A stretch of DNA of 64,000 bases from Ensifer sp. PDNC004 (lineage in GTDB: Bacteria > Pseudomonadota > Alphaproteobacteria > Rhizobiales > Rhizobiaceae): NCBI RefSeq assembly GCF_016919405.1, contig NZ_CP070353.1, positions 992,001 through 1,056,000 on the forward strand, read 5' to 3'. Below, piece by piece: positions 38,528 through 47,790 of the stretch; position 1 is the stretch's first letter; the number at the start of each line of letters is the position of its first letter. A program made the translations under genes and the position numbers. Under the pieces are notes generated by a model that saw only the letters and a program-made list of their open reading frames with translations, made no database searches and had not been told where the DNA came from.

Positions 38528-38760
38528 CCCGCCCTATCCAATTCGCGTGCGACCCGGCTGCGCGGTACTGCGAATGCGGCCACTGCACTTTCCCGCCGGC
38601 GCGAAACATCGACCTGGACGCGCTCGCCAAAGCGAACCGCGATTTCAGCGCCGCCGCCTACTTCATGATCCTCCTGTTCGCCCTCCTCGCCTTCATGGCG
38701 ATCGGCTTTGCGAACACCGAGGAGATCCACCGCAAAATCGTAGCCGAGAGGACCGTCTGA
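38524..38760 (+). CDS. Small membrane protein with N-terminal Cys cluster
   Basis: A 78-residue protein from ATG 38524 (MTRPIQFACDPAARYCECGH), overlapping the previous stop. It has four Cys in the first 22 residues (AC, YCECGHC) that may bind zinc, then a helix at residues about 44-63 (AAYFMILLFALLAFMAIGF) that would span the membrane, and a short tail. It lies in the early-right operon. Function unknown. Confidence 0.65.
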   Translation: MTRPIQFACDPAARYCECGHCTFPPARNIDLDALAKANRDFSAAAYFMILLFALLAFMAIGFANTEEIHRKIVAERTV

Positions 38761-39293
38761 TGACCGCTCCCGCAATCGAACACAGCATGCGCCGGCAGAC
38801 CGAGGCGGCAAAGGCCCTCCTCGTCGATCTCCGCAACCAGGGCGCCGATGACGACGCCGACCTCGTCGCCGACACCATCGAGGGCGAAACGAACCTCATG
38901 GAAGCGATCGAGGAGGCAATCGCCGAACTCGACGAGTGCGATGTTCTCGTGACCGGCCTCAAGGCCAAGGAAAGCGACTTCGAGGCACGCCGCAAGGCGA
39001 TCGAGAAGCGCGCCGAGCGCATCCGGGCCCTGATCGAACAGGCGATGCTGGCAACCGACCAGATGTCGATGAAGTTGCCGACGGCAACCCTGTCGCTTTC
39101 GAAGCGTGCGCCCGGCCTGATCGTCACCGACGAAGCCGATATCCCGGCCAAGTACTGGGTTGAGCAGCCCCGTCCAGCTCCGAAGCTCGACAAGAAAGCC
39201 CTCACCGCCGACCTGCGCGAGAAGGATGCCGCCCCTATCCCCGGCGCCACCCTCGACAACGGCTCTTTCTCTCTCACGGTCCGGAGGAAGTGA
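38760..39293 (+). CDS. Siphovirus Gp157-like protein
   Basis: A 177-residue protein from ATG 38760, overlapping the previous stop as ATGA. Its core resembles Siphovirus Gp157: an acidic helical first half (EGETNLMEAIEEAIAELDEC), FEARRKAIEKRAERIRALIE, QAMLATDQMSMKLPTATLSL and VTDEADIPAKYWVEQ. Gp157 is named after a resistance-associated streptococcal phage protein and is commonly encoded next to single-strand annealing proteins, as here. It probably helps recombination or replication. Confidence 0.82.
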   Translation: MTAPAIEHSMRRQTEAAKALLVDLRNQGADDDADLVADTIEGETNLMEAIEEAIAELDECDVLVTGLKAKESDFEARRKAIEKRAERIRALIEQAMLATDQMSMKLPTATLSLSKRAPGLIVTDEADIPAKYWVEQPRPAPKLDKKALTADLREKDAAPIPGATLDNGSFSLTVRRK

Positions 39294-39295
39294 CC

Positions 39296-40252
39296 ATGAA
39301 CGCTATCACCAAATACGACATGACTTCCAAGCAGGTCGCCCTGGTCAAGCAGACGATTGCCAAAGACTGCAATGACGACGAATTCAACCTCTACATGGAG
39401 GTTGCGCGCGCCAAGGGCCTCGACCCGTTCCTCGGCCAGATCATCCCCATGGTCTTCTCGAAGAAGGACGCCGCCAAGCGGAAGATGACAATCATCATCA
39501 GCCGTGACGGACAGCGCGTCATCGCCCAGCGCTGCGGTGACTACCGCCCCGCCAGCAAGCCGCCGACCTATGAATTCGACCCGTCGTTGAAAAGCCCTCT
39601 CAATCCGCAAGGCATCGTCTCGGTGACCGTCTACCTGTGGAAGCAGGATCCGAAGTCTGGCGAGTGGTACGAGGTCGCCGGTCAGTCGTTCTGGGAAGAG
39701 TTTGCCCCGATCAAAGATGAGTGGGCACAGAACGACAACGGGAAGAACTACAAGACCGGGAAACAGACGCTCGACGACAGCGGCAACTGGGCTCGCATGC
39801 CGCGCCTGATGATCGCCAAGTGCGCCGAGATGCAGGCATTGCGCGCCGGCTGGCCGGAACAGTTCACCGGCCTCTACGACGAAGCCGAAATGGAGCGCGC
39901 CAAGGTCCTCGACCTCACCGCATCCGAAGTCGTCGAGAAGGAACGCGAAGACCACCGCATGCGCGCGATCGGGGCCGACAACTCGATCACCGTCACCTGG
40001 GGCGACAACTGGGCGCTTGAAAACGTGCCGGTCGGTAAGTTCGCCGACGAGGTGATGCGGTTCCTGCAGGAGTCGTCGCCGGAAACCATCATCAAGTGGC
40101 AGGACGCGAACCGGGAACCGCTGAAACGCTTCTGGGCCATGCAGCCGGGTGACGCGCTTGCGCTCAAGAAGGAAATCGAAGCCGCTATCGCGCGCAAGCC
40201 CTCGCGGCCGGCGAACGACGAGCTTCGCAACCATCCGCTCATGGCAGGTTGA
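39296..40252 (+). CDS. bet: Single-strand annealing protein (Bet/RecT-like)
   Basis: A 318-residue protein; ATG 39296 has a GGAGGA site at ideal distance, though GTG 39290 is in frame. The N-terminal half has the Bet pattern: DDEFNLYMEVARAKGLDPF, then QIIPMVFSKKDAAKRKMTII and a VYLWKQDPKSGEWYEVAG segment; WARMPRLMIAKCAEMQALRA follows. Bet-family proteins pair single-stranded DNA with its complement during recombination. It follows a Gp157-like gene, a common pair. A partner exonuclease was not identified nearby. Confidence 0.88.
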   Translation: MNAITKYDMTSKQVALVKQTIAKDCNDDEFNLYMEVARAKGLDPFLGQIIPMVFSKKDAAKRKMTIIISRDGQRVIAQRCGDYRPASKPPTYEFDPSLKSPLNPQGIVSVTVYLWKQDPKSGEWYEVAGQSFWEEFAPIKDEWAQNDNGKNYKTGKQTLDDSGNWARMPRLMIAKCAEMQALRAGWPEQFTGLYDEAEMERAKVLDLTASEVVEKEREDHRMRAIGADNSITVTWGDNWALENVPVGKFADEVMRFLQESSPETIIKWQDANREPLKRFWAMQPGDALALKKEIEAAIARKPSRPANDELRNHPLMAG

Positions 40253-40253
40253 T

Positions 40254-40772
40254 ATGCAGCCGCTCATGTTCCGCTGGACCGGTGAAGAGTTGGTGCCCGT
40301 GAACCGCCGCTGGCAATCGCTGGCGGATCGGTACCTTGTCGTCGGCGAGGAGTATTACCTCGCCGAGCACAACGATCGCAGCATGAACACGCACCGGCAT
40401 TACTTCGCATCGGTCGCCGAGGCCTGGCGGAACCTGCCTGAGCATTTCGCCGGCCTGCCTTTTACCGAATCCGCGGAACATCTGCGCGCCTATGCACTGA
40501 TCCGCACCGGCTATTGCGACGCTCACACGGTCGTATGCTCGAGCAAAGCGGAAGCATCGCGCATGGCGGCATTCATCCGCCCGATCGACGGCTTTTCGAT
40601 CGTCGACGTCAAAGAGGCGACCGTCACCCGGTACGTCGCGAAAAGCCAGTCCATGAAGGCGATGGATAAGCAGGAATTTCAGCAAAGCAAGGTGGCCGTG
40701 CTCGACTTCCTCGACGACCTGATCGGCGTCGAGCGCGGCACCACGCACCGAAACGCAGGGAGCGCCGCATAA
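40254..40772 (+). CDS. DUF1367-like phage protein
   Basis: A 172-residue protein from ATG 40254 (MQPLMFRWTGEELVPVNRR), directly after the annealing protein. It has the pattern of phage DUF1367: NTHRHYFASVAEAWRNLPEH, then SAEHLRAYALIRTGY, typical for that family. The family lies in recombination/replication operons; function not established. Confidence 0.78.
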   Translation: MQPLMFRWTGEELVPVNRRWQSLADRYLVVGEEYYLAEHNDRSMNTHRHYFASVAEAWRNLPEHFAGLPFTESAEHLRAYALIRTGYCDAHTVVCSSKAEASRMAAFIRPIDGFSIVDVKEATVTRYVAKSQSMKAMDKQEFQQSKVAVLDFLDDLIGVERGTTHRNAGSAA

Positions 40773-41638
40773 TGGCCGAGAATTCCGCGATCTCCTGGAC
40801 CACCCACACTTGGAACCCATGGATGGGCTGCACCAAGGTCAGCCCGGCATGCGACGGCTGCTACGCCGAAGCGCTGATGGACAAGCGCTACAACAAGGTA
40901 CAGTGGGGAAACCACCCGCGCCAGCGCACCGGCGCCCAGACTTGGAATGACCCGCGCCGCTGGCAGCGCCAGGCCGAGAAGGACGGCAGCCGTCCCTTCG
41001 TCTTCTGCGCCAGCCTCGCCGACATCTTCGATAACCAGGTTCCGGCAGAGTGGCGCGCCGATGCCTTCAACGTCATGCGCGACACCCCGCGCCTCGTTTA
41101 TCTGCTGCTGACGAAGCGGCCGCAAAACATCGTCAAGCTTTCCGACGCCGCCGGCGGGCTGCCGAGAAACGCAGCGCTCGGCGCGACGTGCGAGGATCAG
41201 CCCCGCGCTGACAAGAATCTACCAGCACTTTGGGTCGCTAAAATCGAACTGCAGCCGCTCTTCACCTTCGGTTCGTTCGAGCCGCTGCTCAGCGATATCC
41301 TTGTGCCGCCCGCTTTCATGCCGGATTGGGTCATCACCGGTGGCGAGACCGACCAGGGCGGCCACAAGGCGCGCCCGTCGCATCATGATTGGTTCCGTAG
41401 CCTGCGCGACCAGGCGGCGGCCGCTGGCGTCCCCTACCACCACAAACAGAATGGCGAGTGGATTCCGCTCTCCCACTACGACGGCGGCGAGTGGCCGTCC
41501 GATGCTGGCGGATGTTGCCGGCTGACCTATAGCGGCGAGCGCGCCGACGGCGGCTATCCGATGCAGAAGGTCGGGAAGAAGTTTGCCGGCAGGCTCCTCG
41601 ACGGTATCGAGCACAACGCGTTTCCGGAGGTGGCATGA
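40772..41638 (+). CDS. DUF5131 (Gp37/Gp68) family protein
   Basis: A 288-residue protein from ATG 40772 overlapping the previous stop. It matches phage Gp37/Gp68 (DUF5131): ISWTTHTWNPWMGCTKVSPA, then CDGCYAEALMDKRY, with a C-x6-C-x2-C pattern, PFVFCASLADIFDNQVPAEW, LLLTKRPQNI and WVITGGETDQGGHKARP. The Cys triad has been compared with iron-sulfur-binding radical-SAM-type enzymes, and DUF5131 is known in phage and mobile elements, sometimes with a three-Cys-motif partner gene, which is not evident here. A nucleic-acid modification role is plausible. Confidence 0.85.
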   Translation: MAENSAISWTTHTWNPWMGCTKVSPACDGCYAEALMDKRYNKVQWGNHPRQRTGAQTWNDPRRWQRQAEKDGSRPFVFCASLADIFDNQVPAEWRADAFNVMRDTPRLVYLLLTKRPQNIVKLSDAAGGLPRNAALGATCEDQPRADKNLPALWVAKIELQPLFTFGSFEPLLSDILVPPAFMPDWVITGGETDQGGHKARPSHHDWFRSLRDQAAAAGVPYHHKQNGEWIPLSHYDGGEWPSDAGGCCRLTYSGERADGGYPMQKVGKKFAGRLLDGIEHNAFPEVA

Positions 41639-42339
41639 TGGCTGATCGCCCCATTCTCTTCTCCGGGCCGATGGTCCGCGCATTGCTCGCCGGTCGGAAG
41701 ACCCAGACCCGCCGCCTGGTCAATTTCCCCGGCGTCGAAAAGGTCATGGATTTCGTGAAGGTCGCGACCGACAAAGATGGCCGGCCAGTCTACGAAATGA
41801 AGGACGCCGCCGGCAGCTTCATGTCTCGTCCTGCTGGCAAGGGGCTCGTCGATTATCACTTTTCGCCTCGCATCGGTGTTGGCGATAGGCTCTGGGTGCG
41901 GGAAACCTGGTCGCACACTGGCGACCACGACTTCTCGATCTCGGAAGCTCGGATGTCTCCGTTCGGCTACGCGATCTATCAGGCCGACGACAACCCAGAC
42001 TATCCGCACGCGAAGTTCTGGCCGTCGATCCACATGCCGCGGGAGTTCTCTCGCCTGACGCTGATCGTCACCGACGTTCGCGTCGAGCGCCTGCAGAGTA
42101 TCAGTGAGGCGGATGCCCTCGCCGAGGGTGCCGAGCCTTCCAAGCATCCCGGCATGGACGGAGGTGCCATGGTGCTGACCGATGTTCCCGGCGTCACTGT
42201 CTCGCCTGGAGTTTGGTACCGGTGGCTCTGGGACGAGATCAACGGCAAAGGCGCATGGAAGGCGAACCCTTGGGTTGTCGCCTACACCTTCCGCGTCATC
42301 AAGCAGAACATCGACCAGATCGAGAAGGTCGCCGCATGA
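41635..42339 (+). CDS. ASCH-like phage protein
   Basis: A 234-residue protein from ATG 41635 (ATGATG start), overlapping the previous gene. It begins PILFSGPMVRALLAGRKTQT with R-R and then GVGDRLWVRETWSH, the pattern of phage proteins with an ASCH/PUA-like RNA-binding fold, and has LQSISEADALAEG and WYRWLWDEINGKGAW at the end. The family is common in phage genomes next to DUF5131, as here. Probably binds modified nucleic acid; function unconfirmed. Confidence 0.78.
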   Translation: MMADRPILFSGPMVRALLAGRKTQTRRLVNFPGVEKVMDFVKVATDKDGRPVYEMKDAAGSFMSRPAGKGLVDYHFSPRIGVGDRLWVRETWSHTGDHDFSISEARMSPFGYAIYQADDNPDYPHAKFWPSIHMPREFSRLTLIVTDVRVERLQSISEADALAEGAEPSKHPGMDGGAMVLTDVPGVTVSPGVWYRWLWDEINGKGAWKANPWVVAYTFRVIKQNIDQIEKVAA

Positions 42340-42710
42340 CAGACGTCGGCACCACCAGACGCGGGACAATGTCGCCCATGCGCCGTCTGCGCATTTTCGA
42401 AGCCCACGGCGGCCGCTGCTGCCTTTGCGAAGGGAAGATCGACGGCGTTCGCCAGAAATGGACGATCGAGCATCTGATCGCCCTCGGCCTCGGCGGCAAG
42501 GACGATGACGGCAACTGCGCCCCGGCGCACGAGGAATGCCGCCGCGGCAAAGATAAGCTCGACGTGACGGCAATCGCCAAGGCGAAGCGCATCAAGGCGA
42601 AGCACCTGGGCATCGCCAAACCGAAGTCGAGCCTGTCGAATCCCCGTTTCCGCAAGTTGATGAACGGCGACGTCGTCGATCGCAGGACCGGCGAAGTGGT
42701 GTCCCGTTGA
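42336..42710 (+). CDS. HNH endonuclease
   Basis: A 124-residue protein from ATG 42336, overlapping the ASCH-like stop. It carries a compact HNH motif: RCCLCEGKIDGVRQKWTIEH, then LIALGLGGKDDDGNCAPAHE and ECRRGKDKLD, with paired Cys, the His of the EH segment, the central N and the AH. This could be a phage nicking enzyme or a DNA-processing nuclease. It ends the DUF5131/ASCH/HNH group. Confidence 0.85.
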   Translation: MTDVGTTRRGTMSPMRRLRIFEAHGGRCCLCEGKIDGVRQKWTIEHLIALGLGGKDDDGNCAPAHEECRRGKDKLDVTAIAKAKRIKAKHLGIAKPKSSLSNPRFRKLMNGDVVDRRTGEVVSR

Positions 42711-42738
42711 CCCCCTTCATTCCCATAGGAGCAGTACA

Positions 42739-43035
42739 GTGAGCGAGACGAAACATACGCGGGGGCCTTGGGAGTTTGACGGGCCGCCGGACAACATCAT
42801 CGTGTGGAGCGGCCCTGAAGCCCGGGTTTGCTTCCTCACCAGTGACGGCCCGACCGAGGCCAACGGCCGCCTCATCGCTGCCGCCCCTGATCTGCTGGCT
42901 GCTCTGAAGGCAGCAGAGCCGTATGTCGAGGCGCTTCACTCTCTGATGAACCCGGAATCCACCAGATCACAGGTTTGGTCCGTCGTGAAGCAGCTTCGCG
43001 CAGCCATCTCCAAGGCCGAAGGATCGCTGACATGA
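42739..43035 (+). CDS. HT-x-GPW small protein (second copy)
   Basis: A 98-residue protein from GTG 42739, with AGGAGCAGTACA before it. It starts SETKHTRGPWEFDGP and has EANGRLIAAAPDLLAALK, placing it in the same family as the product at 38225. It probably arose by duplication in the operon or by separate gain. It is 28 bases after the HNH gene. Confidence 0.7.
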   Translation: MSETKHTRGPWEFDGPPDNIIVWSGPEARVCFLTSDGPTEANGRLIAAAPDLLAALKAAEPYVEALHSLMNPESTRSQVWSVVKQLRAAISKAEGSLT

Positions 43036-43250
43036 CCGACATCGAAGACGACGACGATCCGATCTACGACGATGACGATTTCTGCGACTGCGAGGAATAC
43101 GACGCCGACATCTTGGAAGGTCGAGCCCATTGCTATCGCTGCGGGCGGTCGTGGTGGCTGACTGACGAGCAGATGCGCCAGGAAATCCGCTGGCAAGCCG
43201 AGATGATGGAATGCGCGGAAGAGAGCGCGGAGGGAACCCAGAATGACTGA
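43032..43250 (+). CDS. Small acidic zinc-binding-like protein
   Basis: A 72-residue protein from ATG 43032, overlapping the preceding stop (ATGA). It begins with an acidic run (MTDIEDDDDPIYDDDD) and has FCDCEEYDADILEG then RAHCYRCGRSWW, with two CxC/CxxC pairs that may bind one zinc (CDC and CYRC). It could be a small zinc finger. Function unknown. Confidence 0.65.
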   Translation: MTDIEDDDDPIYDDDDFCDCEEYDADILEGRAHCYRCGRSWWLTDEQMRQEIRWQAEMMECAEESAEGTQND

Positions 43251-44301
43251 CAACGAAATCGACATCGACGCCCTTGCGCAGGAGATCCGGCGCGTTGACG
43301 GCAATCATTCTCTCGGCCATGGCGCATTGGCTGAAGCGCTCGCACCGTTCATCGCCGCTCTCTCCCGCGCTATCGATCCGAAGGTGGAGGTGGAGGCGGT
43401 GGCAGAACAGTGGTGTGCTTATGAAGACGGCCATCAGTATACGGGATGGATGCCAACTGGTTATGGCGATCGGTCTGGCTGGGAAGCCCTCGCAAGGCGG
43501 AACCCGAGCAAATACCAGATCGTTACGCGGCCACTCTACGCCTCCCCCTCCATTGTCGCGCCGGTGGGTGTGAAGCCGCTGGAAGCGGAACTGCTTCGCC
43601 TCGCAGAAAAGCACCGGTGGGCGATCTCCCCGCAAGTTGGCGGCGGATGGGTAATCGAAACTGCCGACTGGCACGGTGACGATGGTTCGGAGCGAGAGAT
43701 AGCCCGCACGCGTAAGTCTCTCGTCGATGCCCTTCGTCAAGCGGTAGAGGAAGAATTGCCGCGTGAGCATTCTCGCCTCTCCGCCCTCACCCCATCAGAG
43801 AAAGCGGGCGTGGGGGATGGGGATGTCGTCGCGGCGTCCTGTATCGCCCGCATGGCTGCAGACGACATGATCAAGCAGAACATCCAGTGGCGCCTTGATC
43901 CGCGTTACATCCTGCGCCTTTGCGATGCGGTTGACGCCGCCCTCACCCCGGCAGTGGGGGATAGGGATGGAACCGCTGCGCAAATAGAATGGCTGAAGGC
44001 GCGCTTGGCGGATCTTCAGTTGCCGGCCGGAAAGCGCGATCACGACACCCGCGAGAAATGGCTCCTGCAATGCGGGATGCCTGACGCCGCCCTCTCGACC
44101 ACCAAGCCAGCGCAGGGGGATGCAATCGACGTCTTGCGTGGATACGAGGCTTGGGAAGCCGATCTGATCCTGAATGGCGATTGGTCCGACGGGTGCCTTC
44201 GCCTGTCTCACGAGCAGCACGACGCTCTCATCGAGCTTCAGACCAAGCGCAATGCCGCCCTCGCCGCGCAGGGGGATGACGCACAGGAGGGGGCGCGATG
44301 A
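43243..44301 (+). CDS. Hypothetical mosaic early protein
   Basis: A 352-residue protein from ATG 43243, overlapping the previous gene by 8 bases. It is a mosaic: residues 1-100 read like phage small proteins (ALAEALAPFIAALSRAID), residues 90-165 like a second small unit (LRLAEKHRWAISPQVGGGW), then a segment with DAALTPAVGDRD and a C-terminal helical tail. The repeated LSALTP or DAALTP phrases suggest joined units. I do not recognise a domain. Confidence 0.6.
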   Translation: MTDNEIDIDALAQEIRRVDGNHSLGHGALAEALAPFIAALSRAIDPKVEVEAVAEQWCAYEDGHQYTGWMPTGYGDRSGWEALARRNPSKYQIVTRPLYASPSIVAPVGVKPLEAELLRLAEKHRWAISPQVGGGWVIETADWHGDDGSEREIARTRKSLVDALRQAVEEELPREHSRLSALTPSEKAGVGDGDVVAASCIARMAADDMIKQNIQWRLDPRYILRLCDAVDAALTPAVGDRDGTAAQIEWLKARLADLQLPAGKRDHDTREKWLLQCGMPDAALSTTKPAQGDAIDVLRGYEAWEADLILNGDWSDGCLRLSHEQHDALIELQTKRNAALAAQGDDAQEGAR

Positions 44302-45170
44302 AGCTGCGTGTCCTCGACCTCTTCAGCGGTATCGGCGGGTTCAGCCTTGGCCTGGAGCGAACGGGCGGTTTCGAGACTGTCGCCTTCTGCGAGATCGAAG
44401 AATTCCCCCGCCGAGTGCTGGCGAAACACTGGCCGAAGGTGCCTTGCTATCATGACGTTAGAGAACTCACCGCCGACACTCTTCGACGGGATGGAATTGC
44501 CGTCGATGTCATCTGTGGCGGGTTCCCGTGCCAAGACATCAGCATGGCGGGAAAAGGCGCTGGCCTCGACGGCGCTCGAAGTGGCCTATGGTCGGAGATT
44601 GTCCGACTCATTCGCGAGCTTCGACCACGATTCGTCATCGTGGAGAACGTCGCAGCTCTGCTTGGTCGCGGGCTTGACAGAGTTCTCGGGGACCTGGCCG
44701 CGCTCGGGCTTGATGCGGAGTGGCACTGCATTCCTGCTGCCGCCCTTGGCGCTCGCCACAGACGAGACCGAATCTGGATTGTGGCCTACCCCCACGCTTC
44801 CGAATGGAGGAAGATCCGTCGCGCACGTCACGGACTGGCGGAGCAACCGAACGGCATACCACAACGGCAAGAAGGTCCAGGTAGATCTGAAGCAAGCCGT
44901 GAGGATGTGGCCGACGCCAAACGCCGGCGATTACAAGGCCGAGATGTCGAATGCGCCTGGTCGGCAACAATCATCCCTGCCGCGTTCTGTGGGCATCGTC
45001 GAGGGAGTGAGTTCGGGCAAGCGTGGCGGACTGAACCCAACATGGGTCGAGTGGCTTATGGGGTTCCCCATGGAATGGACCGACTTAAAGGGCTCGGCAA
45101 CGCCGTCGTCCCGCAAATCCCAGAAATGATCGGCCGCGCCATCCTCGAAGCTGAAAGGTCCGCAGCATGA
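44298..45170 (+). CDS. DNA cytosine-5 methyltransferase
   Basis: A 290-residue protein from ATG 44298 with a GGAGG site. Motif I is LDLFSGIGGFSLGL (residues 6-19), the catalytic motif IV is GGFPCQDIS with nucleophile Cys78, motif VI is FVIVENVAAL (112-121), motif VIII-like GARHRRDRIWIVAY (151-164). A variable target-recognition region of about 80 residues follows, and the C-terminal motif IX-X region includes MGRVAYGVPHGMDRLK and GLGNAVVPQI. It transfers a methyl group to C5 of cytosine in a specific site. It has no restriction partner. Its second half overlaps another frame (44452-45129) that also looks protein-coding. Confidence 0.88.
   Translation: MKLRVLDLFSGIGGFSLGLERTGGFETVAFCEIEEFPRRVLAKHWPKVPCYHDVRELTADTLRRDGIAVDVICGGFPCQDISMAGKGAGLDGARSGLWSEIVRLIRELRPRFVIVENVAALLGRGLDRVLGDLAALGLDAEWHCIPAAALGARHRRDRIWIVAYPHASEWRKIRRARHGLAEQPNGIPQRQEGPGRSEASREDVADAKRRRLQGRDVECAWSATIIPAAFCGHRRGSEFGQAWRTEPNMGRVAYGVPHGMDRLKGLGNAVVPQIPEMIGRAILEAERSAA
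44452..45129 (+). CDS. Overlapping frame with conserved-looking phage protein, nested in methyltransferase gene
   Basis: In the +1 frame relative to the methyltransferase gene, an open frame runs from at least ATG 44308 to TAA/TGA at 45129; the family-like start is at ATG 44452 (MTLENSPPTLFDGMELP). The product (225 residues) has the typical pieces of a phage protein family that I recall accompanying cytosine methyltransferases: RAKTSAWREKAL, then FDHDSSSWRTSQLCLVAGL, FSGTWPRSGLMRSGTAF, GLWPTPTLPNGG, MWPTPNAGDYKAE and NPTWVEWLMGFPMEWTDLK. These motifs match a distinct family and are not expected by chance. Both frames therefore appear to carry protein-like information in the same 680 bases. 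Confidence 0.6.
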   Translation: MTLENSPPTLFDGMELPSMSSVAGSRAKTSAWREKALASTALEVAYGRRLSDSFASFDHDSSSWRTSQLCLVAGLTEFSGTWPRSGLMRSGTAFLLPPLALATDETESGLWPTPTLPNGGRSVAHVTDWRSNRTAYHNGKKVQVDLKQAVRMWPTPNAGDYKAEMSNAPGRQQSSLPRSVGIVEGVSSGKRGGLNPTWVEWLMGFPMEWTDLKGSATPSSRKSQK

Positions 45171-45571
45171 CCGCCAAACACCTCCTTTCGGAAATCGTGG
45201 CGGGGCTCGATGGGGTGAGCAAGGGCAAGTGGTGCCAGTTCCACCCGTCATATTGCGAAGAGGCGAAGGGCGCCCCGTTTTCGGATTGGGATAGCTCGCA
45301 CGACCTCAGCGCGGTCCACGACGGCGAGCGTCGGCGGATAGCCACGTTCAAGCACACCAGCGATGCGGCCCATGTCGATCGCCTGTCCGAAGAGAACATT
45401 CGGGCGATAGCCGCCTATGTCGAGCAGCTTGAGAAGGCGCTGGAGCCGTTTGCAGCCGAGGCCAATCAATTCGCCGAGACATGGCCGGACGGCACACGTG
45501 AAAGGCCGGACAAGTTCAATCTCGGCGACCTGCGCCGCGCCCGCGCCGCCCTTGGAGGTTCGAATGAGTGA
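45167..45571 (+). CDS. Hypothetical early protein
   Basis: A 134-residue protein from ATG 45167, overlapping the methyltransferase stop (ATGA). It starts MTAKHLLSEIVAGLDGVSKG and has DGERRRIATFKHTSDAAHVD, then a helical ALEPFAAEANQFAETWP part and DLRRARAALGG end. Similar small proteins with an N-terminal KW and a C-terminal DLRRARAAL motif accompany phage early genes. Function unknown. Confidence 0.6.
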   Translation: MTAKHLLSEIVAGLDGVSKGKWCQFHPSYCEEAKGAPFSDWDSSHDLSAVHDGERRRIATFKHTSDAAHVDRLSEENIRAIAAYVEQLEKALEPFAAEANQFAETWPDGTRERPDKFNLGDLRRARAALGGSNE

Positions 45572-45773
45572 TCTGATAGCGAGCCTTCCATACATCTATC
45601 GGTGGGACCGCCAAGGCCGGAAAGGACAGCCCTGCGATGTGCTGATCCGCACGAAGGTCATGAATAGCTGCCTCGTCAAGTTCGCCGACGGCTACACGAT
45701 GGTAACCAGCCGCAACGCTCTGATGAAGAACAAGGCCCAGCCCCATTCTGAGACGCGACAGGAGCAGAGATGA
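45564..45773 (+). CDS. Small basic hypothetical protein
   Basis: A 69-residue protein from ATG 45564, overlapping the previous stop by 8 bases and with GGAGG just upstream. It begins MSDLIASLPYIYRWDRQGRK and has GQPCDVLIRTKVMNSCLVKF, a beta-type small fold (strand-turn-strand) seen in phage proteins. Possibly nucleic-acid binding. Unknown. Confidence 0.6.
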   Translation: MSDLIASLPYIYRWDRQGRKGQPCDVLIRTKVMNSCLVKFADGYTMVTSRNALMKNKAQPHSETRQEQR

Positions 45774-45967
45774 GCGAGATACCGGAAGACATCAGGCAGA
45801 CGGCCACAAGTATCGCCGCGGCTTCACTCCAGGGTGGCACGACCGCTTTTCATGTGCTCGCGTGGAATATTGCTCAAGCCATCCTCAACGAGAGGTCGCG
45901 GCGAGACGAAGTTCCATCCCCACCCACCAACGCCCTCCGGCAGGGAAGAAAGGAGGCGGGGGAATGA
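45770..45967 (+). CDS. Small hypothetical protein
   Basis: A 65-residue protein from ATG 45770, with GGAGCAGAG before it, overlapping the previous stop. It begins MSEIPEDIRQTATSIAAASL and has a helical middle with VLAWNIAQAILNERSRRD. Probable phage early protein with no recognised domain. Confidence 0.6.
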   Translation: MSEIPEDIRQTATSIAAASLQGGTTAFHVLAWNIAQAILNERSRRDEVPSPPTNALRQGRKEAGE

Positions 45968-46152
45968 AGCTGACAAAGCCACAATGGCTGTTGCTCGTCG
46001 ATGTCGATGAGGGTGATGGTAAGGCTAGTGACACCTACCCTCCAGCAAAAAAGCTCGTCGAGTTAGGCCTGTGCCGATGGGAGCCGCAGAAGTACGGGCA
46101 GAAGCTCGTCATCACTGAAGCGGGCCGCAAAGCGCTGAAGGAAGCCCCATGA
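45964..46152 (+). CDS. Small winged-helix-like protein
   Basis: A 62-residue protein from ATG 45964, overlapping the previous stop. Begins MKLTKPQWLLLVDVDEGDGK and ends in PQKYGQKLVITEAGRKALKE, with the strand-loop-strand-helix pattern that small winged-helix proteins use (for example V-I-T-E-A-G-R-K-A-L). It probably binds DNA. Unknown partner. Confidence 0.6.
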   Translation: MKLTKPQWLLLVDVDEGDGKASDTYPPAKKLVELGLCRWEPQKYGQKLVITEAGRKALKEAP

Positions 46153-46216
46153 CCTCACCCCTCATCCCACAGCGGGTTAGCGTCGGAATGCTTAGTAAGG
46201 AAAGGAAAGCGGCAAG

Positions 46217-46480
46217 ATGAGCGCGCCAACGTCGATCAATCGCACAGTCCCGCGTATCAGCCTGAACCGAGTAGAGGTCGCCCTTGCGCTCGGGGTTAGC
46301 GCCAACACGGTGGACGAGATGGTTGATGAAGGCTACCTTCCTCAGCCGAAGCGCTGGCACACGCGCAAGGTCTGGCTGATCTCGGAAATTGAAGCCTTCA
46401 TGTCCGAGTGGCCGTCGGACGGGATGAACAAGAAAACCGGGGGAGACGCCGACGGCGATTCGTGGCGGGCGTCTGCGTGA
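46217..46480 (+). CDS. Excisionase-like HTH protein
   Basis: An 87-residue protein from ATG 46217 with an AAGGAAAGCGGCAAG context. It contains RISLNRVEVALALGVSANTV, then DEMVDEGYLPQPKRW and VWLISEIEAFMSEWPS, an MerR/excisionase-type helix-turn-helix (S-x-x-E-A-x-x-L-G-V-S-x-x-T-V). Such AlpA/Xis-like genes adjoining integrase control prophage excision. It overlaps the integrase start (GTGA) by 4 bases. Confidence 0.8.
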   Translation: MSAPTSINRTVPRISLNRVEVALALGVSANTVDEMVDEGYLPQPKRWHTRKVWLISEIEAFMSEWPSDGMNKKTGGDADGDSWRASA

Positions 46481-47685
46481 CAGACGTGGTCGAAATCGAA
46501 TACCCATACGTTGAGCGAAATGTGACGCGCCACGGAAAGGCGCGGTACTATCTCCGCATTGACGGGAAACGCATCTGCCGGCTGCCGAACAAGATCGACA
46601 GCGAAGAATTCCAGAAGGAATATTGGGCTGCGCGCAAAGCATATCAGCCCGACGCAGCGCCTGATCCGGCACAGCCTCAGACCCTCTCCAAGATCGTCAA
46701 GCCGAACAGCTTTCGATGGCTCTGCCTCGAATACATGGGCAGCATCGCCTTCAAGACGCTGGACGTCACCACCCAGGACCGGCGCCGGAACATCATCGAG
46801 GCTATGTGGGAAGAGCCGCTGTCCACGAATGACGGCCGGCTATTCGCCGACATGCCACTGTCCGCGATGGACGTGGGCAATCTCGAAGTATTGCGGGATA
46901 GGAAGAAGGAAAAGCCGTTCGCCGCGGACGAGCGCCTGAAGACGCTGCGGCAGGTGTTCGATACCAAGAAGGACGGCAAGCCGATCGTGGCGAATATCGC
47001 GCGCCTCGTCGAGCCATTCCGGCAGCAATCGGACGGCCACGAGACAGCGACCCCGGAGAACCTTGCCGCGTTCATCGCGCACCACGGCGTCAAGTCAAAG
47101 GCCGTGCTCTATCTGGCAATCCAGATGTTCACCGGGCTGCGCGTATCCGATCTGCGCGTCATCGGGCCGCAGCACCGCCGCAAAGACGTTTTCAAGCTGC
47201 GCCTGTTCAAGAACAGGAACCGGACGCCAGTAGATCTCGAGATTGCCATTCACCCAATCCTTGAGGGCGTATTGGCTATGCACCCGCCGAAAGGGCTTCA
47301 TTATCTCGTCACCGAGTTCGGGAAACCGTTCAACAGCGCGAAGAGCCTGGGGAATCGCATTTCGGATTGGTGGCGCCAGGCAGACATGCCGCATCTGACA
47401 TCGCATTCGGTGCGAAAGGGTCTCGCGACCGACCTCGCCCACGAAGAAGCGACGGACAGCATGCTTGAAGCGATGTTCGGCTGGAAAGACGGGAAAACGT
47501 CGAAGATCTACACGAGGAATGCAGAACGCGCACGCTTGGCGCGACAGAGCGTTGCCCGCATCAACTGGGATGGAATCGGCAATTTGCTGCTGGCTTCAGA
47601 CGATGTTGGGGAGGGAGAAACCGGGAACGGATTGCCACACCTATCCGAAAGTGTGGCAGCGGGTGCAATCCCGCTCATGAAATAA
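46477..47685 (+). CDS. int: Tyrosine integrase
   Basis: A 402-residue protein; the best start is GTG 46477 (VTDVVEIEYPYVERNVTRHG), overlapping the excisionase stop, and earlier in-frame ATG 46408 is less likely. The tyrosine-recombinase residues are visible: Arg222 in the TGLRVSDL box, His310-x-x-Arg313 in TSHSVRKGLA, Trp336 in FGWKDGKT and Tyr345 in KIYTRNAE. The N-terminal region has an arm-binding beta pattern and a SAM-like core-binding segment. It would recombine attP with attB. It lies 32 bases from tRNA-Cys, whose 3' end is the likely attB core. The C-terminal end is Gly/Glu rich. Confidence 0.9.
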   Translation: MTDVVEIEYPYVERNVTRHGKARYYLRIDGKRICRLPNKIDSEEFQKEYWAARKAYQPDAAPDPAQPQTLSKIVKPNSFRWLCLEYMGSIAFKTLDVTTQDRRRNIIEAMWEEPLSTNDGRLFADMPLSAMDVGNLEVLRDRKKEKPFAADERLKTLRQVFDTKKDGKPIVANIARLVEPFRQQSDGHETATPENLAAFIAHHGVKSKAVLYLAIQMFTGLRVSDLRVIGPQHRRKDVFKLRLFKNRNRTPVDLEIAIHPILEGVLAMHPPKGLHYLVTEFGKPFNSAKSLGNRISDWWRQADMPHLTSHSVRKGLATDLAHEEATDSMLEAMFGWKDGKTSKIYTRNAERARLARQSVARINWDGIGNLLLASDDVGEGETGNGLPHLSESVAAGAIPLMK

Positions 47686-47716
47686 CCCAACCATTTCAGA
47701 TGGTTAGGTGTGGCTT

Positions 47717-47765
47717 TGGAGGCCTCGCCCGGAATTGAACCGGGGTACAAGGATTTGCAGTCCTC
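47717..47765. other. Probable attachment-site core (tRNA-Cys 3' half)
   Basis: The anticodon-to-3' half of tRNA-Cys lies beside the integrase stop (47685), and tyrosine integrases of this type commonly use this part of a tRNA as attB core. The matching second copy (attL or attR) would be near the left end of prophage A, outside the window. A stem AACCAT-TTCAG-ATGGTT lies at 47688-47704, just between integrase and tRNA. Confidence 0.5.
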
Positions 47766-47790
47766 TGCGTCACCACTCCGCCACGAGGCC
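47717..47790 (-). tRNA. tRNA-Cys: tRNA-Cys (GCA)
   Basis: A 74-nt gene on the minus strand with encoded CCA and perfect acceptor stem GGCCTCG/CGAGGCC, followed by T and CCA. The anticodon loop is CTGCAAA (anticodon GCA), and the T-arm reads CCCGGTTCAATTCCGGG. This is a normal bacterial tRNA-Cys. Its 3' end points to the integrase gene, the usual layout for a prophage integrated into the tRNA 3' end and restoring the gene sequence. Confidence 0.95.

Follow-up and report, generated by a model that had tools for sequence, protein, structure and literature searches.

Introduction

M.EcoHK31I (YGGCCR) is a two-polypeptide C5 methyltransferase. Its small chain is reportedly nested in the +1 frame of the large chain, a finding attributed to Lee, Kam and Shaw in 1995. 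One description of the enzyme places motifs I to VIII and X on the large chain and motif IX on the small chain; the large chain is also said there to hold the predicted recognition domain (PMC3404938). Another account terms the enzyme naturally split (PMC3439449). M.AquI also has two chains. These are parted near the variable region, and motifs IX and X are both on the small chain (PMC3404938).

Here, we describe a C5 methyltransferase gene in the window, by which we mean the whole stretch of 64,000 nucleotides that was analysed. Compared with those descriptions, the window resembles M.EcoHK31I in having motifs I to VIII and X on the large chain and motif IX on another product. In the window and its relatives the gene for the small chain also lies inside the gene for the large chain, in the +1 frame. 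Unlike M.EcoHK31I as described there, the recognition stretch of the window is constrained in the +1 frame, which is that of the small chain, and not in frame 0. The M.AquI layout given there, in which the small chain bears both motif IX and motif X, is found in one relative, L095; the window differs from it by keeping motif X on the large chain, in frame 0.

A nested +1 ORF with motif IX at its end, lying within a methyltransferase gene, has already been annotated as gene 50 of Paenibacillus phage Diva (‘g49 internal gene’). Its product is called a hypothetical protein, without a function. In the available part of a Paenibacillus phage comparison, DNA-cytosine methyltransferases are listed and the overlap is not discussed (PMC6070908). 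The available part of a review of frameshifting mentions a yeast tRNA methyltransferase as its sole methyltransferase (PMC5009743). No published account of this overlap was found in the open-licence literature, and no feature named M.EcoHK31I was present among 40 of 585 plasmid records listed. What is new here is the breadth of the arrangement, together with signs that selection on the recognition region acts in the shifted frame.

Results

Two overlapping frames in a prophage-like region

The two ORFs, which we call alpha and beta, and the nearby integrase gene are as follows.

44298..45170, + strand: alpha ORF, frame 0, 290 aa; C5 methyltransferase with motifs I-VIII and X
44452..45129, + strand: beta ORF, +1 frame, 225 aa counted from the ATG at 44452
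46408..47685, + strand: phage integrase (PHROG 1, E 8.8e-16); marks the prophage end

The methyltransferase gene has a G+C content of 61%, and the +1 frame is open from upstream of 44308 (GTG) through 45129. The initial annotation had quoted four peptides from the ORF at 44452-45129, including SSSWRTSQLCL, FSGTWPRSG and GLWPTPT, and all four are present. Gam-like and RecT-like recombination genes (38547-40252) are in the same prophage-like stretch as the methyltransferase. A DNA-binding or excisionase-like ORF is at 46217-46480. The integrase is separated by 31 bases from a tRNA-Cys gene (47717-47790), which suggests prophage integration at tRNA-Cys. The order in the prophage-like stretch (38547-47790) is Gam-like and RecT-like genes, methyltransferase, integrase and tRNA-Cys. 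A search of Rfam with positions 43800-45600 gave no RNA family, and a consensus search of positions 43000-46500 gave no promoter.

Frame 0 encodes the catalytic motifs

The frame from 44298 had been read as a cytosine-5 methyltransferase with all main motifs. The family assignment stands: PHROG 363 covers alpha residues 1-288 and, in Pfam, PF00145 covers residues 4-179 (E 1.8e-40). The complete motif set does not. Motifs I, IV, VI and VIII of a PF00145 C5 methyltransferase occur together in the alpha chain, but motif IX does not; in the window it is in the +1 frame. The predicted mass of alpha is ~32 kDa. The conserved words of alpha, which correspond to motifs I, IV, VI and VIII, are given below with motif X and the frame-0 linker.

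44316..44342, + strand: motif I (DLFSGIGGF); invariant columns in the alignment
44517..44543, + strand: motif IV (GGFPCQDIS, catalytic PC); sequence and invariant columns
44643..44651, + strand: motif VI (ENV); sequence and invariant columns
44760..44786, + strand: motif VIII (RRDRIWIVA); sequence and invariant columns
44790..45017, + strand: frame-0 linker, alpha residues 165-240; site of the target-recognition domain, constrained in the +1 frame
45093..45116, + strand: motif X (LGNAVVPQ, frame 0); sequence and invariant columns, and the tail shows the ordinary third-position pattern

The +1 product carries recognition modules and motif IX

The +1 product gave no match to Pfam or NCBIfam families. 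The best family match of beta was PHROG 1008 (E 1.4e-27), and this family is labelled DNA methyltransferase; being the best match of the +1 product, it may have derived its label from the overlapping gene. Among candidate database proteins, 4979 of 6109 matched the +1 product at E <= 1e-3. The C-terminal half of single-chain C5 enzymes also matches it. The predicted mass of beta is ~24 kDa, and its features are as follows.

44435..44441, + strand: GAAGGTG, weakly ribosome-site-like as read from the sequence, 10 bases upstream of the beta ATG
44782..44793, + strand: first WPTP of beta, head of a recognition module; sequence and alignment
44908..44919, + strand: second WPTP of beta; sequence and alignment
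45031..45087, + strand: motif IX in beta, LNPTWVEWLMGFPMEWTDL, +1 frame; the same words are in frame 0 of relatives

Modules headed by WPTP make up the recognition region. Their number and order vary among homologues of the database protein P0002 (alignment A1).

The motif IX words of frame-0 relatives align to motif IX of M.HhaI; by itself, the motif IX stretch matches M.HhaI weakly (i-Evalue 14). In six loci, motif IX continues into motif X within frame 0. Using a looser motif IX pattern tuned on these loci, and written after the first 41 of 74 missed loci had been read by eye, we found motif IX in the +1 frame of 121 of 155 loci, against 1.9 in shuffles scored with the same pattern, and in frame 0 of 6. 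The earlier, stricter pattern gave 75 of 155 loci in the +1 frame and 6 in frame 0.

An in-frame ATG is present within alpha codons 39-81 in 171 of 217 genes, and 92 of these have a ribosome-site-like sequence. At codons 50-55 an ATG was present in 107 of 155 genes, against 87.4 in shuffles. Because this excess is small, the start of beta is putative; translation probably starts at the internal ATG at 44452. AlphaFold gave no confident fold for beta (pLDDT 56.0, pTM 0.29), and the PTP region was modelled at low confidence in a single-chain relative too. There was no structural match of beta at E <= 0.001, and the best match in a PDB sequence search with the +1 profile was only at E 0.92.

The +1 product had been proposed to belong to a different family, unrelated to the methyltransferase and of unknown function. 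This does not agree with the presence of a C5-methyltransferase motif IX. Since the +1 product carries motif IX and sits where the target-recognition domain belongs, it most likely forms a second subunit that completes the methyltransferase.

The +1 frame is widespread among related methyltransferases

To avoid circularity, loci were chosen by frame 0 only. Hence, the methyltransferase profile alone was used to rank 567 confirmed bacterial and archaeal loci and 598 viral loci. The top 80 of each set were taken, and they represent the nearer part of the methyltransferase family. In these sets the +1 profile matched 79 of 80 bacterial and 80 of 80 viral loci, every time at the +1 offset. The sole bacterial exception scores as a methyltransferase only. 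By their record titles, the bacterial and archaeal loci come from many phyla and include one archaeon.

The +1 signal is beyond chance, as the initial annotation had held, and it collapsed on shuffling of synonymous codons. The median +1 score fell from 163.0 to 57.1 bits in the bacterial set, where 79 of 80 loci scored above all 20 shuffles, and from 199.9 to 71.3 bits in the viral set, where 80 of 80 did so. As a control we used ordinary C5 methyltransferases, namely the 30 best Pfam-search matches in 190 genomes of the class, a choice that favours full-length single-chain matches; their mean G+C is 0.46, below the 0.61 of the window's gene. The median +1 score of the control was −1.8 bits, against −2.2 in shuffles, and 1 of 30 genes scored above its own shuffles. 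Control genes had 377 stops in the +1 frame (373.5 in shuffles). The motif IX pattern was found in frame 0 of 9 of 30 control genes, and in the +1 frame of 1 of 30.

When viral loci were fetched with the +1 protein, a methyltransferase ORF overlapped at the same +1 offset in 39 of 39. Frame 0 was broken in three of the 39 (L018, L019 and L025). These interruptions may be genuine shifts of frame or may stem from errors in assembly; the +1 frame of L019 continues into motif X. Phage records opened at the methyltransferase annotate only the methyltransferase frame in 7 of 8 cases.

Relatives with other layouts

Some relatives distribute the same elements differently. In L095 there is a clean split: the catalytic chain stops after motif VIII, and a +1 chain has PTP repeats and motifs IX and X. 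The beta chain of L095 matched no family in Pfam. L039 and L292 are single-chain relatives in which PTP repeats, motif IX and motif X are in one frame. The window is unlike these and P0242, single-chain C5 methyltransferases with PTP repeats that have the recognition region and motifs IX and X in frame 0. In L292 (2549-3985) and L039 (2646-3938), the frame-0 PTP modules are accompanied by a +1 ORF over the catalytic half, which has TWP..SG..RNG words and PTP modules of its own. The database protein P0049, with a precomputed PF00145 assignment, is a single chain that reads as methyltransferase motifs I to IV and continues as the +1 family. In an E. coli prophage, a related methyltransferase of the nested type (L306, 1874-2635) has an internal stop and carries a pseudogene annotation; its +1 frame is open over a stretch that ends in motif IX.

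Both frames are under selection in the overlap

Genes were kept if the frame-0 match was at least 215 codons (156 of 160; L090, L095, L103 and L115 were left out). Synonymous constraint was measured for 155 distinct genes, in 11,908 pairs with an identity below 75%. The constraint was limited to the overlap, with its onset near codon 61 and its end near codon 270. Codon sharing at identical amino acids, as the ratio of observed to expected, was 1.04-1.11 over codons 1-60 and 1.30 over codons 61-75. It was 1.14-1.17 over codons 76-105, 1.49-1.89 over codons 106-165 and 1.06-1.77 over codons 166-240. The ratio reached 2.45 at codons 241-255, then fell to 1.59 at codons 256-270 and 1.10 at codons 271-285.

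Stop codons in the +1 frame outnumbered the shuffle expectation at codons 1-50 (290 vs 231.6) and 271-289 (187 vs 133.0). They were fewer than expected at codons 55-100 (59 vs 191.6), 101-164 (10 vs 326.1), 165-240 (0 vs 132.4) and 241-262 (25 vs 64.1). For the +2 frame, stops were as expected at codons 101-164 (424 vs 422.5), with a mild deficit at codons 165-240 (447 vs 511.5) and an excess at codons 241-262 (300 vs 218.9). In 142 of 155 loci the +1 frame was wholly open across codons 101-258; shuffles gave 12.2 such loci. Among the 26 loci with less than 50% G+C, 19 were open across these codons and the linkers had no +1 stops (0 vs 44.0 expected). A frame open by chance through high G+C is ruled out by these low-G+C loci.

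We also compared difference rates at frame-0 positions 1, 2 and 3, using 228 genes and 4705 close pairs, with some loci found by the +1 protein. Codons 1-50 had the pattern of an ordinary gene (0.109, 0.044 and 0.319), and the tail gave 0.096, 0.032 and 0.328. The rates were 0.103, 0.073 and 0.288 for codons 55-100, and 0.171, 0.079 and 0.231 for codons 101-164. In the linker (37 segments) they were 0.212, 0.055 and 0.046, and in codons 241-268 they were 0.213, 0.108 and 0.155. Frame-0 position 1 is position 3 of the +1 codon; hence, the linker follows the substitution pattern of a +1 gene. When every gene was allowed into a single pair only, all 64 of 64 independent pairs had their linker changes at the third position of +1 codons; these pairs were picked for shared +1 words, which favours +1 conservation, and the difference-rate analysis had no such filter. 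Synonymous and non-synonymous changes among changed linker codons were 112:1451 in frame 0 and 960:572 in the +1 frame.

The frame-0 linker, a variable stretch between motifs VIII and X, has no amino-acid constraint. With the 4 of 160 loci that had a short frame-0 match excluded beforehand, it contained 0 stops in 9905 codons, against 306.0 expected if only the +1 frame mattered. Linkers open in frame 0 by chance would be expected in 29.3 of 155 loci. Since the linker lacks frame-0 stops, both frames appear to be in use; for frame-0 matches of at least 215 codons, the missing stops rule out an idle frame 0.

Thus, selection acts on both frames, and the +1 frame is the one that holds motif IX and in which the recognition stretch is constrained. 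Constraint in the methyltransferase frame only, named by the initial annotation as the contrary result, was looked for and not found. Its proposal of same-strand dual coding has strong evolutionary support from the overlap-confined synonymous constraint, the deficit of +1 stops, which the +2 frame does not show to a similar degree, the open frame-0 linkers and the clean control.

Discussion

The sequences make it very likely that a single stretch of DNA at this locus specifies both subunits of a C5 methyltransferase, a catalytic alpha subunit and a nested beta subunit for recognition that includes motif IX. Frame 0 would give alpha, with catalytic motifs I to VIII, a spacer without amino-acid constraint and then motif X. 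The +1 frame, probably from the internal ATG at 44452, would give beta, with a recognition region of WPTP modules and motif IX at its end. Alpha would supply catalysis and motif X, beta would supply recognition and motif IX, and the two would come together as a single enzyme acting on phage or host DNA. We infer that beta is made as a separate polypeptide, that, by analogy, it may bind alpha, and that the PTP region would set the target sequence.

The same two frames could instead be joined by programmed ribosomal frameshifting: ribosomes would pass from motifs I to VIII in frame 0 into the recognition region in the +1 frame, might then return to frame 0 for motif X, and would so make one chain. 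The single-chain relatives L039 and L292, with PTP repeats and motifs IX and X in one frame, would fit such a product, as would the PTP modules in both frames of L292. We nevertheless consider frameshifting unlikely: a shift would come after motif VIII, but the +1 frame is constrained already over alpha codons 101-164, upstream of that point. Moreover, L095 has two separate ORFs, and frame 0 remains open across the linker. A second reading, also quite improbable, makes the +1 product a protein with a separate function, perhaps a phage regulator or inhibitor, whose gene happens to overprint that of the methyltransferase. The first half of beta overlaps alpha motifs V to VIII and is without a known relative outside this setting, as such a protein might be. 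However, beta ends in motif IX, which is absent from frame 0. Its position is that of the recognition domain, and single-chain C5 enzymes match it in their C-terminal half.

That the +1 frame is an untranslated shadow of a conserved methyltransferase in G+C-rich DNA is scarcely credible, although the window's gene is indeed G+C-rich and several +1 motifs overlie conserved frame-0 motifs. Synonymous shuffles remove the signal, whereas the 26 loci below 50% G+C show it too, and their linkers are free of +1 stops. The linker evolves by +1 rules, and the 30 ordinary C5 enzymes are without the signal.

Turning from the single locus to the family, we lean towards the view that the two-subunit arrangement defines a large class of C5 methyltransferases in phages and prophages, most of it still without annotation. 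In this class, the whole recognition half would be in the +1 frame, the frame-0 spacer would be merely stop-free, and motifs IX and X would have moved between frames. Because the frame-0 spacer would be informative only as a stop-free stretch, recognition modules would be exchangeable while alpha still works.

If the two-subunit reading is true, database entries for such genes show just one of the two halves of each enzyme, and alpha cloned alone as annotated is expected to be inactive or unspecific. It would also bear on phage anti-restriction and on the assignment of methylation motifs. The frame-0 linker, seemingly kept open yet otherwise unconstrained, would be a clean test case for the evolution of overlapping genes.
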